A stretch of 64,000 nucleotides of DNA from Sphingopyxis terrae subsp. terrae NBRC 15098 (GTDB lineage Bacteria; Pseudomonadota; Alphaproteobacteria; Sphingomonadales; Sphingomonadaceae). The stretch covers positions 62,001 to 126,000 of the forward strand of contig NZ_BCZQ01000012.1 in NCBI RefSeq assembly GCF_001598815.1. The letters are read 5' to 3'. Made by a program: the position numbers and the translations under genes. This document shows, one piece after another, positions 7,879 to 54,674 of the stretch (within the stretch, counting starts at the first letter, position 1; the number at the start of each line of letters is the position of its first letter). The notes under the pieces were generated by a model. It was not told the DNA's origin. It was given only the letters and a program-made list of their open reading frames with translations, and made no database searches.

Positions 7879-8802
7879 GTGGCCGATACGGCAGAAAAGA
7901 AACCACTCAGCTTTCAGGACATGATCCTGACGCTTCACGATTATTGGAGCGCGCGGGGCTGTGCGATCCTGCAGCCTTATGACATGCGGGTGGGCGCGGG
8001 GACGTTTCACCCGGCGACGACGCTGCGCAGCCTGGGGCCGGAGCCGTGGAATGTCGCCTATGTCCAGCCGAGCCGCCGCCCGACCGACGGCCGCTATGGC
8101 GAGAACCCGAACCGCCTTCAGCATTATTATCAATATCAGGTGATCCTGAAGCCGTCGCCCGCCGACCTGCAGGAACAATATCTCGGCAGCCTGGCCGCGA
8201 TCGGCATCGATCCGCTGCTCCACGATATCCGGTTCGTCGAGGATGACTGGGAATCGCCGACGCTCGGCGCATGGGGGCTGGGCTGGGAAGTCTGGTGCGA
8301 CGGGATGGAAGTCACCCAGTTCACTTATTTTCAGCAGATGGGCGGCTTCGACTGCAAACCCGTCGCGGGCGAGCTGACCTATGGGCTCGAACGCCTCGCC
8401 ATGTATATCCAGAATGTCGACAATGTGTACGACCTCAGGTTTTCCGACCCCGTCGGCGACGTGCCGGGTTTGAGCTATGGCGATGTCTTCCTCGAAAACG
8501 AGCGCCAATTCTCGAAATGGAATTTCGAGGTTGCCGACACCGATACGCTGTTCGCGGGGTTCAAGGCGGCCGAAGACGAATGCAAGCGCGCGATTGCGGC
8601 GAATGTGCCGCTTGCTGCGTACGACCAGGCGATCGAGGCGAGCCATTTGTTCAACCTCTTGCAAGCGCGCGGCGTGATCAGCGTGCAGGAACGCGCCAAT
8701 TACATGGCGCGCGTCCGCGACCTCGCGAAGGGAAGCTGCAAGGCGTGGATCGACAGCCAGTCCGAACGCTGGACCGAAAAATATCCGGGGTGGGTGCTGT
8801 GA
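7879..8802 (+). CDS. glyQ: Glycyl-tRNA synthetase alpha subunit
   Basis: Catalytic alpha subunit (307 residues) of the tetrameric bacterial GlyRS. It shows the conserved [42 protein letters not shown] and [19 protein letters not shown] blocks of the class II core. The GTG at 7879 is chosen because homology starts a few residues later; the in-frame extension upstream to 7747 is Arg- and Cys-rich and unlikely to be protein. The gene overlaps glyS by GTGA. Confidence 0.95.
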
Positions 8803-11153
8803 CCGATTTTCTTCTCGAACTGCGCAGCGAGGAAATCCCCGCGCGGATGCAGGCGGGCGCGCGTGCCGAGCTGGAAAAGCTGTTCCGCGCGCAGATGGCA
8901 GCGGCGGGCATCGACGTCGGCAATCTGACCATCTGGTCGACCCCGCGCCGACTTGCGCTGATCGCAAAGGGGCTTCCGCAAGCGACCGCTGCGGTCAGCG
9001 AGGAAATCAAAGGGCCGCGCAGCAGTGCGCCGCCGCAGGCGCTCGAAGGCTTCCTCCGCAAGACCGGGTTGACGCAGGATCAACTCGAAGATCGCGATGG
9101 CGTTTACTTCGCCGTCATCGACAAGCCCGGCCGTGCGACGGCCGAGGTGCTCGCCGAGGCGATCCCCGCGATCGTCCGCGGCTTTGCCTGGCCCAAGTCG
9201 ATGCGCTGGGGCAAGGAAAGCGCAAGCAGCGAAAGCCTGCGCTGGGTGCGCCCGCTGTCGGGGATCGTCGCGATCTTCGGCGACGAATTGGTGCCGTGCG
9301 AAATCGGCGGGATCGCCAGCGGCTTCGTGACGCGCGGCCACCGCTTTCATTGCCCCGGCGAAATCACCATCGGATCGGCGGCGGATTATGCCGAAAAGCT
9401 GCGCGCCTGCCACGTCATCGTCGACCATGAGGAGCGGCAGGCGATCGTTCGCGATGGCGCCGCCAAGGCCGCGGCCGACGCCGGGCTGAGCCTTGTCGAG
9501 GACGAGGGGCTGGTGATCGAGAATGCGGGCCTCACCGAATGGCCGGTGCCGCTGCTCGGCCGCTTCGACGAAGCCTTCCTGGAGGTGCCGCCCGAGGTCA
9601 TTCAGCTTACCGCGCGCGTGAACCAGAAATATTTCGTCGTGAACGGGACGGACGGCAAGCTCGCCAACGGCTTCGTCTGCACCGCGAATATCGACGCCAA
9701 GGACGGCGGCGCGGAGATCGTCGCGGGCAATCGCAAGGTGCTGGCGGCGCGGCTTTCGGATGCGCGCTTCTTCTGGGAGCAGGACCAGAAGAAGACGCTG
9801 GAACAGCACGCCGAGAAGCTGGCGAACATCACCTTCCACGAAAAGCTCGGCACCGTAGCCGACAAGGTCGAGCGCGTCGCCAAGCTGGCGCGCTGGCTGG
9901 TCGAGGAAGGCATCATTATGCCTTCGAGTGTTCCCGCGCAGGCGGGAACCCAGAGCGGAGATGGGCCCACAGCGGATGGACGCTCTGGACCCCCGCCTTC
10001 GCGGGGGAACATGGACGTGTCTCGCGAGGAATTGGCCGACCAGGCCGAACTCGCCGCGCGATTGGCGAAAGCCGACCTCGTCACCGAGATGGTCGGCGAA
10101 TTCCCCGAATTGCAGGGCCTGATGGGCGGTTATTACGCCCGGGCCGAAGGCTTGCCCGACGCGGTCGCTGACGCGATCCGCGATCATTACAAGCCGGTCG
10201 GGCAGGGCGATGACGTGCCGACCGCGCCGGTGACGGTGGCTGTAGCGCTGGCGGACAAGCTGGATACGATCATGGCATTCTTCGGAATCGAAGAAGTCCC
10301 GACAGGATCTAGGGATCCCTTTGCGCTTCGCCGCGCCGCGCTTGGAATTATTCGTATCATACAGTCAAATGCGATCAGGCTTTCCTTGAGCGCGGTGACG
10401 TACAATGGAATGATTGTTCCAATTTTTCAGTCTTTTGCAGTACCAGAAGCAATTGATCGGGAGCACGTAAAGCGCGTTCTTGCTCCCGCGAAGAAGTTCC
10501 TTTCAGACGAAAGCGCTGCGAGCCAGTCCGTGCTGGAAGATAAATTTCTGGTCGAAGCTGAGCAATCGGCCGCGAGGTACGCCGTCGCTCAGGCATCCAT
10601 TATAAAATTGCTCGACTTCTTCGCCGACCGCCTCAAGGTCCAGCAGCGCGAAGCCGGCGTCCGTCACGACCTGATCGACGCGGTGTTTGCGCTCGGCGGC
10701 GAGGACGATCTCGTTCGCCTGCTCGCGCGGGTGAAGGCGTTGCAGGCGTTTATGGCGACCGAGGACGGCGCCAATCTGCTTGCGGGCTACAAGCGCGCGG
10801 CGAATATATTGAAGCAAGCCGAAAAAGACGTCGTCCCCGCGCAGGCGGGGACCGCTGGCGGCACTGCTCCCACGATAACGGCCCCCGCCTTCGCGGGGGC
10901 GACGGATGTGGACAAGGCGCTGCTCGCCGCGCTCGACGCCGCCGAGCCCGCGGCGTCTGCTGCGGTTGCCGACGAACGCTTTACCGACGCCATGGCGGCG
11001 CTCGCCAGCCTGCGCGCGCCGATCGATGCCTTTTTCGACGGCGTGATGGTCAACGATCCCGACGAAGCGGTGCGCGCCTATCGGCTCGGCCTGCTGTCGC
11101 GCTTTACCGGCGCGGTGCATGGCGTTGCCGATTTCTCGAAGATCGAGGGCTGA
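8799..11153 (+). CDS. glyS: Glycyl-tRNA synthetase beta subunit, with in-frame repeat insertions
   Basis: Beta subunit (tRNA recognition) with GTG start coupled to glyQ. At 784 residues it is clearly longer than the usual 690 or so. Three unusual segments explain this. Residues about 377-405 ([12 protein letters not shown]...SGPPPSRGN) and 677-702 ([12 protein letters not shown]...[10 protein letters not shown]) are translations of palindromic repeats also seen outside genes. Residues about 505-605 are encoded by a strikingly AT-richer stretch with rare codons (ATA, TCA, AGG, GTA). The conserved N-terminal [15 protein letters not shown], the RVNQKYF region and the C-terminal DALR-like domain ([22 protein letters not shown]) are intact and in frame, so the protein should be functional. 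Confidence 0.95.
9929..10011. repeat. Palindromic repeat inserted in frame in glyS (copy 1)
   Basis: An 83-bp element made of two inverted arms, each itself a hairpin: TTCCCGC-GCAG-GCGGGAA on the left and CCCCCGC-CTTC-GCGGGGG on the right, with CAGAGCG / CGCTCTG pairing between them. It is read through as 28 extra residues of GlyS without a frameshift or stop. Confidence 0.85.
10300..10620 (+). other. AT-rich, atypical-codon segment inside glyS
   Basis: Composition and codon choice change sharply within the open frame. Runs such as ATT CGT ATC ATA CAG TCA and ATG ATT GTT CCA ATT TTT contrast with the GC-ending codons on both sides. The encoded segment lies just before the C-terminal [11 protein letters not shown] motif and appears longer than in typical GlyS. 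Recombination with a foreign allele is the simplest reading. Confidence 0.6.
10829..10904. repeat. Palindromic repeat inserted in frame in glyS (copy 2)
   Basis: A 76-bp element of the same family: left arm CGTCGTCCCCGC-GCAG-GCGGGG, right arm CCCCCGC-CTTC-GCGGGGGCGACG, the outer ends complementary with one mismatch. It adds about 26 residues (VVPAQAGT...[10 protein letters not shown]) between the DALR-like region and the C-terminal helices of GlyS. Confidence 0.85.
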
Positions 11154-54575: not shown

Positions 54576-54674
54576 GTGCCCCTGCGAAGGCAGGGGCCCA
54601 TCACGAGGTTTTGCAATCAAAAGCCTGCGTCTGGCGAAGGGGCAGGAGATGGGCCCCTGCCTTCGCAGGGGCAC
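54576..54674. repeat. Extragenic palindrome (GTGCCCCTGCGAAGG family)
   Basis: A 27-bp arm (GTGCCCCTGCGAAGGCAGGG..., 54576-54602) is repeated as an exact inverted copy at 54648-54674. Each arm is itself a hairpin. It separates the convergent dnaB and cysH genes. The CCCCTGC-GAAG-GCAGGGG core has the same design as the repeats inserted in glyS. Confidence 0.9.

Follow-up and report, generated by a model that had tools for sequence, protein, structure and literature searches.

The glyS gene of Sphingopyxis terrae subsp. terrae NBRC 15098, which encodes the beta subunit of glycyl-tRNA synthetase (GlyRS), contains two palindromic doublets in frame, and the same two places are empty in many glyS genes of the genus and are filled with other repeat families in further ones. 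We consider it likely that each doublet is a REP dimer translated in a tolerant loop of the enzyme, with turnover by insertion, decay and allele swapping. As far as the literature searched extends, what is new is that many families have used the same two fixed loops repeatedly in a genus and an order, that alleles with and without inserts exist and have been exchanged, and that a subgroup of the repeats is without CGTC. The window is the whole stretch of DNA analysed (64,000 nucleotides); the following features use its positions.

8799..11153, plus strand: glyS, glycyl-tRNA synthetase beta subunit, the host gene (784 aa, GTG start; from translation and Pfam)
9519..10659, plus strand: stretch where the glyS alleles of this strain and its nearest relative differ (from window identities; edges placed to about 120 nt)
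9929..10011, plus strand: element 1, an 83-bp palindromic doublet without a CGTC tag (fold and translation; tags GAGT and ATGT)
9930..9949, plus strand: element 1 hairpin A (8-bp stem, 8 of 8 bp paired; 4-nt loop GCAG)
9989..10008, minus strand: element 1 hairpin B, the inverted partner of hairpin A (loop GAAG on the minus strand)
10332..10622, plus strand: hypervariable low-GC segment, GlyS residues 512-608 (from the genus gene comparison)
10829..10905, plus strand: element 2, a palindromic doublet with CGTC at its left end and GACG at its right end (fold and translation)
10833..10852, plus strand: element 2 hairpin A (inverted-repeat search)
10881..10900, minus strand: element 2 hairpin B (inverted-repeat search)

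The product of glyS matches the Pfam families tRNA_synt_2f (E 4.4e-182) and DALR_1 (E 7.7e-7) and is the only GlyS match found in the genome, so we take the enzyme to be working. Sphingopyxis supplies most of the named loci closest to this GlyS, within a set from which records very near our genome are possibly absent. A sequence-only reading had described an 83-bp double hairpin of extragenic type, lying in frame in an essential synthetase gene and adding about 28 residues. Its coordinates hold, and the translation of glyS agrees with it: element 1 covers GlyS residues 377-405 and would be expressed as 27 residues between a serine and a methionine. Its outer arms pair end to end and enclose two hairpins, each made of an 8-bp stem and a 4-nt loop (MFE -49.8 and -51.5 kcal/mol for the two strands; z -4.5 and -4.7; equalled by 0 of 200 shuffles), and hairpin B includes a match to the repeat core at 9992-10005 on the minus strand (C12:71992-72005). 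Between the same anchors this GlyS has 58 residues, vs 23 in the allele of the nearest relative (G013), which is without element 1, a net gain of 35. Immediately 5' of element 1, at window 9906-9925, lies a perfect 8-bp inverted repeat, GAAGGCAT..ATGCCTTC.

The same reading had called element 1 a first copy, and the second was found in the same gene as element 2, whose fold is stronger (z -6.4 and -7.2). Element 2 is translated as 25 residues flanked by aspartates, and both elements begin in the frame that yields VPAQAG. Both fall within the range of CGTC REPs for stem (8-9 bp) and loop (4-5 nt). Element 1 ends in the 3-nt tail CCA, and the left-arm tail of element 2 is CGC, a minor type found on 15 of the 82 arms in this genome. 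Element 2 carries CGTC on both arms; element 1 has neither CGTC nor its variants TGTC and CCTC on either arm.

Similar elements are plentiful elsewhere in the genome. The core CCCGCGNAGGCGGG has 36 plus-strand and 32 minus-strand matches (68) in the 4.08-Mb sequence, and the reversed control has 0 and 0. All but 12 of these matches (56/68) form 28 close pairs, every one of them plus then minus, which is the HH arrangement, with tags outside, defined for CGTC REPs (PMC3733652). A search that allowed two mismatches and considered only the plus-then-minus order returned 41 doublets in 45 loci. CGTC stands on both arms of 14 of them, on one arm of 3 and on neither arm of 24, the commonest other tag being GTGT (22/82 arms); there thus appear to be two subgroups, one with CGTC on both arms, to which element 2 belongs, and one without CGTC, which holds element 1. 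In this set, for which the core pattern searched already implies most of the stem, 79 of the 82 arms have at least 7 of the 8 stem positions paired; the loop is GAAG in 68 arms and GCAG in 10, and 47 arms have the CCA tail. The window holds a further doublet of like build at 54579-54671, with CCCCTGCGAAGGCAGGG arms that differ from the searched core by two mismatches. Across the genus, the core occurs in 79 of 80 genomes, at 0 to 172 copies per strand and 0 to 337 in total; two palindromes similar to it occur in 78 and 42 genomes, and a palindrome of other sequence, CCTCCCGCNNGCGGGAGG, in 76. The repeat shows no adaptation to coding, as the share of stop-free frames is 0.695 vs 0.681 in shuffled copies.

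Translated REP dimers in a synthetase gene are a known kind, here unusually clear and repeated. By S. alaskensis in what follows we presume Sphingopyxis alaskensis to be meant. CGTC REPs were described and tied to Rickettsia RPEs and Neisseria dRS3 by Di Nocera et al. (2013; PMC3733652), and the passages of that paper on which we draw report units within tRNA synthetases of X. oryzae, E. litoralis and S. alaskensis, and no dedicated transposase. The CGTC-1 REP resembles the glyS elements in its 8-bp stem, 4-nt loop, 3-nt tail and HH dimers, and likewise in a mainly alphaproteobacterial distribution and the presence of units inside genes, tRNA synthetases included (PMC3733652). A dedicated transposase is reported to be lacking for CGTC REPs, and in our genome a search for PF01797, the transposase profile covered, gave no match. 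It differs in that element 1 is without CGTC on both arms, although element 2 has it, and in the genus-wide filling of one site by many families, for which the nearest statement in those passages concerns recB, where two Xanthomonas species have different REPs at about the same site (PMC3733652). Among the views offered there is that insertions are possibly neutral owing to their position in flexible linkers or loops (PMC3733652). For a glyS hotspot no report was found in the literature searched; glyS itself may already stand in the supplementary list of PMC3733652.

Rickettsia palindromic elements are translated in frame in likely working genes, and element 1, in an enzyme presumed active, and element 2 are of the same kind in this respect. 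R. conorii has such elements in many genes, whereas our genome has 3 copies in two Pfam-supported genes. The parallel with Rickettsia drawn by the sequence-only reading was already in print, since R. conorii RPE-6 and RPE-4 have been equated with CGTC-1 and CGTC-4 REPs (PMC3733652); the relation in sequence is taken from that paper. The enterobacterial RU-1 to RU-3, of 103-168 bp and with open reading frames (Delihas, 2007; PMC2759123), are likewise small mobile repeats inside annotated genes, read as protein, but they are larger, have other sequences and live in other hosts. Finally, the doublet recalls the REPIN. REPINs consist of two inverted REPs with a spacer and are proposed to be moved by RAYT transposases. 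Our doublets are also two inverted REPs with a spacer that form one long hairpin; they differ in that our genome is without a Y1_Tnp match and that repeat number in the genus is not tied to RAYT.

The sequence-only reading had proposed that GlyS of other sphingomonads be compared, and the insert proved to be present in some and absent from others. Among 80 genus genomes 77 gave usable glyS genes; G102 had no match, the gene of G085 was cut off by a contig end and G096 was left unscored. Rows L069, L115 and L122 are excluded from the homologue alignment (wrong frame). Site 1, the place of element 1, is occupied (more than 30 residues) in 29 of the 77 genes and short in 48, so the segment is not conserved in all homologues. 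Site 2 is occupied in 43 of the 73 genes scored by script and empty in 30; the remaining four missed the anchors and were inspected by eye, which showed G091 and G093 to be empty, G083 to have a PERGGG-type insert and G072 to have lost the frame within the repeat. A significant hairpin (z at or below -3) is present in 22 of the 29 occupied segments at site 1 and 40 of the 43 at site 2, and in none of the 48 and 30 empty segments or of 120 control segments. The frame is uninterrupted across both sites in 76 of the 77 genes, a count to be read with the knowledge that the script sought uninterrupted frames and could miss broken genes, and that 3 of 80 genomes had no usable gene. In G072 (L234) the frame is lost within the site 2 repeat and an early stop follows, owing to mutation or to an assembly error at the hairpin, which would mean that inserts are not always harmless.

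The inserts at the two sites belong to six or more sequence types. By loose motif rules, site 1 inserts were assigned to F2 (CCGGCGAARGCCGG type; 12), F1 (CCCGCGNAGGCGGG core; 9), F4 (1) and others (7), the last including PSPEGEG, PERGGG and tandem GTVPSG types, and site 2 inserts to F1 (14), F2 (11), F3 (10), F4 (7) and other (1). The four family cores have 110 matches in the 77 genes, counting F4, a perfect palindrome, on both strands, and all of them lie at the two sites. Wear is seen in some inserts, at site 1 in G021 and G098 and at site 2 in G034 and G004. A tree built from the first 1020 bases requires a minimum of 25 changes of family state at site 1 and of 35 at site 2. Support is poor for 33 of its 74 inner branches, and recombination raises these figures, which do not equal numbers of insertions. 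The site 1 insert of G083 (L251) is made of two tandem copies of an unrelated peptide, GTVPSG(K/N)AAPWTVPGGADEG, with 81 residues between the anchors.

Of 80 named loci, 52 were compared. Among 40 sphingomonad loci outside Sphingopyxis, grouped by name or GlyS identity, a significant hairpin is present at site 1 in 20 and at site 2 in 7, whereas 7 other alphaproteobacterial loci have none at either site. Site 1 of S. italica is an empty named locus and yet passes the hairpin threshold (z -3.1).

It had also been suggested that the loop be located in a GlyRS model. In an AlphaFold2 model of GlyS built from 59 sequences (mean pLDDT 88.8, pTM 0.83), element 1 falls in a low-confidence coil (370-408) between helices 353-369 and 409-422, and the site 2 insert in a coil (678-702) between helices 655-677 and 703-724. 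The pLDDT is under 50 at residues 380-394 and 679-689, which fits disorder of both loops. In 7yse chain C, the nearest sequence with a solved structure, site 1 has 6 residues, vs 44 in our GlyS. As both insert peptides are modelled as low-confidence coils linking helices, tolerance of these loops is the likely reason why inserts sit there.

Inserts of this sort need not come or go by transposition. The glyS genes of our strain and of G013 are 0.993 identical over nucleotides 1-720 and 0.93 identical over 721-1080; towards the gene end 498 of 525 positions are identical, and element 2 is common to both. They differ in the state of site 1 and in the hypervariable segment, and the differing stretch at 9519..10659 contains element 1 as well as that segment. 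Alleles have thus been exchanged in one of the two lineages. Around site 1, G013 is closest to other empty alleles (0.96 to G099, G080 and G078), and its hypervariable segment is closest to that of G025 (0.85-0.88). Element 1 of our genome is closest to an element at the same place in G066 (0.92 identity), the sister of our strain and G013 on the tree (support 96); it would therefore either predate the split from G066 or have come by allele exchange. Since G066 has an insert of our type and G013 resembles empty alleles, the likelier direction is that G013 was the recipient and lost element 1; the reverse, in which our genome would have gained it from a G066-like allele, is less likely. Two earlier proposals were dropped: import of the middle of our glyS together with element 1, as the three-way identities favour G013 as recipient, and identity of about 97% to G013 throughout, the gene end having only 498 of 525 positions identical.

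The hypervariable segment, which lies between the two element sites, is not one of these palindromes. In 75 genus genes scored it is 28 to 119 aa long, with a mean pairwise identity of 16% vs 87% upstream and a mean GC of 0.54 vs 0.65 for the gene. It is often unrelated between congeneric species though the enzyme is essential, and some versions are shared, as by G013 and G025. A donor of the segment of our strain was looked for and not found.

The sequence of events that we favour may be put as follows. Element 1 would be a REP dimer, two inverted CGTC-1-like hairpins of REPIN-like build, translated within glyS and lengthening by about 28 residues a disordered loop that joins two helices of GlyRS beta. 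If this loop tolerates added residues, a repeat with an open frame and a frame-keeping length could survive in it as a more or less neutral peptide, and the same rule would apply to element 2 in the second loop. Across the order, unrelated repeat families may insert and decay while homologous recombination swaps glyS alleles, and the net effect would be that both loops are filled, emptied and refilled. The ancestor shared with G066 probably already had element 1 in its glyS, after whatever insertion first placed it there, and G013 then lost it by exchange.

Whether the number of repeats in a genome bears on occupancy depends on correction for the tree. Genomes with an occupied site 1 have a median of 131 F1 plus F2 matches vs 77.5 for those with an empty one (p 0.0004), and for site 2 the medians are 117 and 69.5 (p 0.004), both without tree correction. 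After correction, site 1 gives 8 independent pairs on supported branches, a mean of 5.0 with and 0.4 against the association (median p 0.06), which is suggestive, and at site 2 the association is absent (6 independent pairs, median p 0.5).

Several other readings were weighed against translated dimers in tolerant loops. The sites could be targets, at which some activity inserts hairpin repeats or converts residents to the current family of the genome. The two sites agree in family in 15 of the 17 genes that have F1-F4 inserts at both, where 7.3 would be expected (permutation p 5e-5, no tree correction), and the F1/F2 ratio of a genome goes with the family found at its sites (p 0.03 and 0.02, likewise uncorrected for the tree). 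At site 2 of G084 and G034, hybrids combine an F3-like left hairpin with an F1-like right one and keep the spacing, which looks as if hairpins had been converted singly; in G084 a worn F3 hairpin is thus joined to an intact F1 hairpin. These same-family pairs and hybrids leave room for local conversion of hairpins, but the pairs are also explicable by shared descent of alleles or by whichever family was active, and F4, PSPEGEG and PERGGG types also land at the sites, which fits tolerance better. Nor was a common target sequence or duplication seen in the two intergenic cases aligned, the flanks of which are altered. These two were the candidates for empty intergenic sites in G013 (39 joined flank pairs were prepared and 9 searched, the last not quite completely), and neither gave a clean empty site. 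We regard such targeting as rather unlikely. A bolder form, to which we would likewise give only a small chance, is that the GlyRS-beta loops are landing pads of an active, RAYT-independent insertion or conversion, with the hypervariable segment exchanged along with them, perhaps under attack by some agent; an essential synthetase would then be under continual exchange in sphingomonads.

A recent jump of element 1 into glyS in this lineage by a RAYT-type Y1 transposase, as proposed for REPINs, appears very unlikely, although the doublet of inverted hairpins resembles a REPIN in build, the nearest relative is without the element and core matches vary as widely as 0 to 337 across genus genomes. 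Our genome has no PF01797 match (the Y1 profile was the one searched, and a lost or divergent transposase is possible), and only 15 of 80 genus genomes have one. Repeat number shows no tie to it, with a median F1 count of 54 in genomes with a match and 41 in those without (p 0.64), and G100, with 337 core matches, has none. Moreover, the element is also found at this place in G066, and our glyS and that of G013 differ across a long stretch and not in element 1 alone.

It is hard to credit that the insert has been put to use, its mRNA hairpin or its peptide regulating glyS or GlyRS. The predicted hairpin is stable and inserts persist across many species, but the sites are so often empty (48/77 and 30/73), unrelated sequences replace one another and several inserts are worn. 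That the insert is bypassed by the ribosome or spliced, and hence absent from the protein, has next to no probability in our view: a strong hairpin would be a plausible signal and the frame loss of G072 would be forgiven, but a bypassed insert could freely shift the frame and gain stops, which the genus genes, of which few were left out, show in a single case.

The mobility of CGTC-type REPs and the neutrality of their intragenic copies were left open in 2013. The GlyRS beta of sphingomonads provides a natural series of one gene and two loops in dozens of species, with empty sites and with fresh and worn inserts of several families, in which gain, loss and swapping can be traced and the cost of an insert measured by a simple assay of an essential enzyme.

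The sequence-only reading had further suggested that REP-like elements can spread into genes. Elements do lie in glyS (twice) and in ileS (once), but wide spread is not borne out, as only 3 of 41 doublets in this genome are inside Pfam-supported genes, and the presence of the same element in G066 (0.92) leaves a recent jump into glyS without support. A doublet is spanned by 34 distinct ORFs of at least 120 aa with at least 12 codons on each side, and 20 of these, glyS included, were scanned with Pfam; the other 14 include ORFs that are short or that oppose or overlap glyS and ileS. Among the other 19 scanned, IleRS was matched around the repeat, RecR and KDPG aldolase were matched beyond it and 16 had no match. 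The true starts of the RecR and KDPG aldolase genes probably lie downstream of the repeat: the doublets at L022 201-273 and L096 2949-3013 stand just 5' of recR and the KDPG aldolase gene, where a misplaced start would mimic an intragenic copy. Exact VPAQAG occurs among the repeat-spanning ORFs only in glyS, twice; PAKAG readings come from ORFs that have no Pfam match, and in ileS the copy is translated in a different frame.

The ileS doublet of this genome sits between the anticodon-binding domain and the zinc finger. Among 30 ileS loci, picked for their resemblance to a query with a repeat, inspection by eye showed a repeat of like kind there in 22, a remnant in 1 and none in 5, and 2 were unreadable. 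IleRS (L017 1503-1564, L254-L283) has a repeat hotspot between those domains, and inspection by eye shows another variable stretch ahead of the zinc finger.
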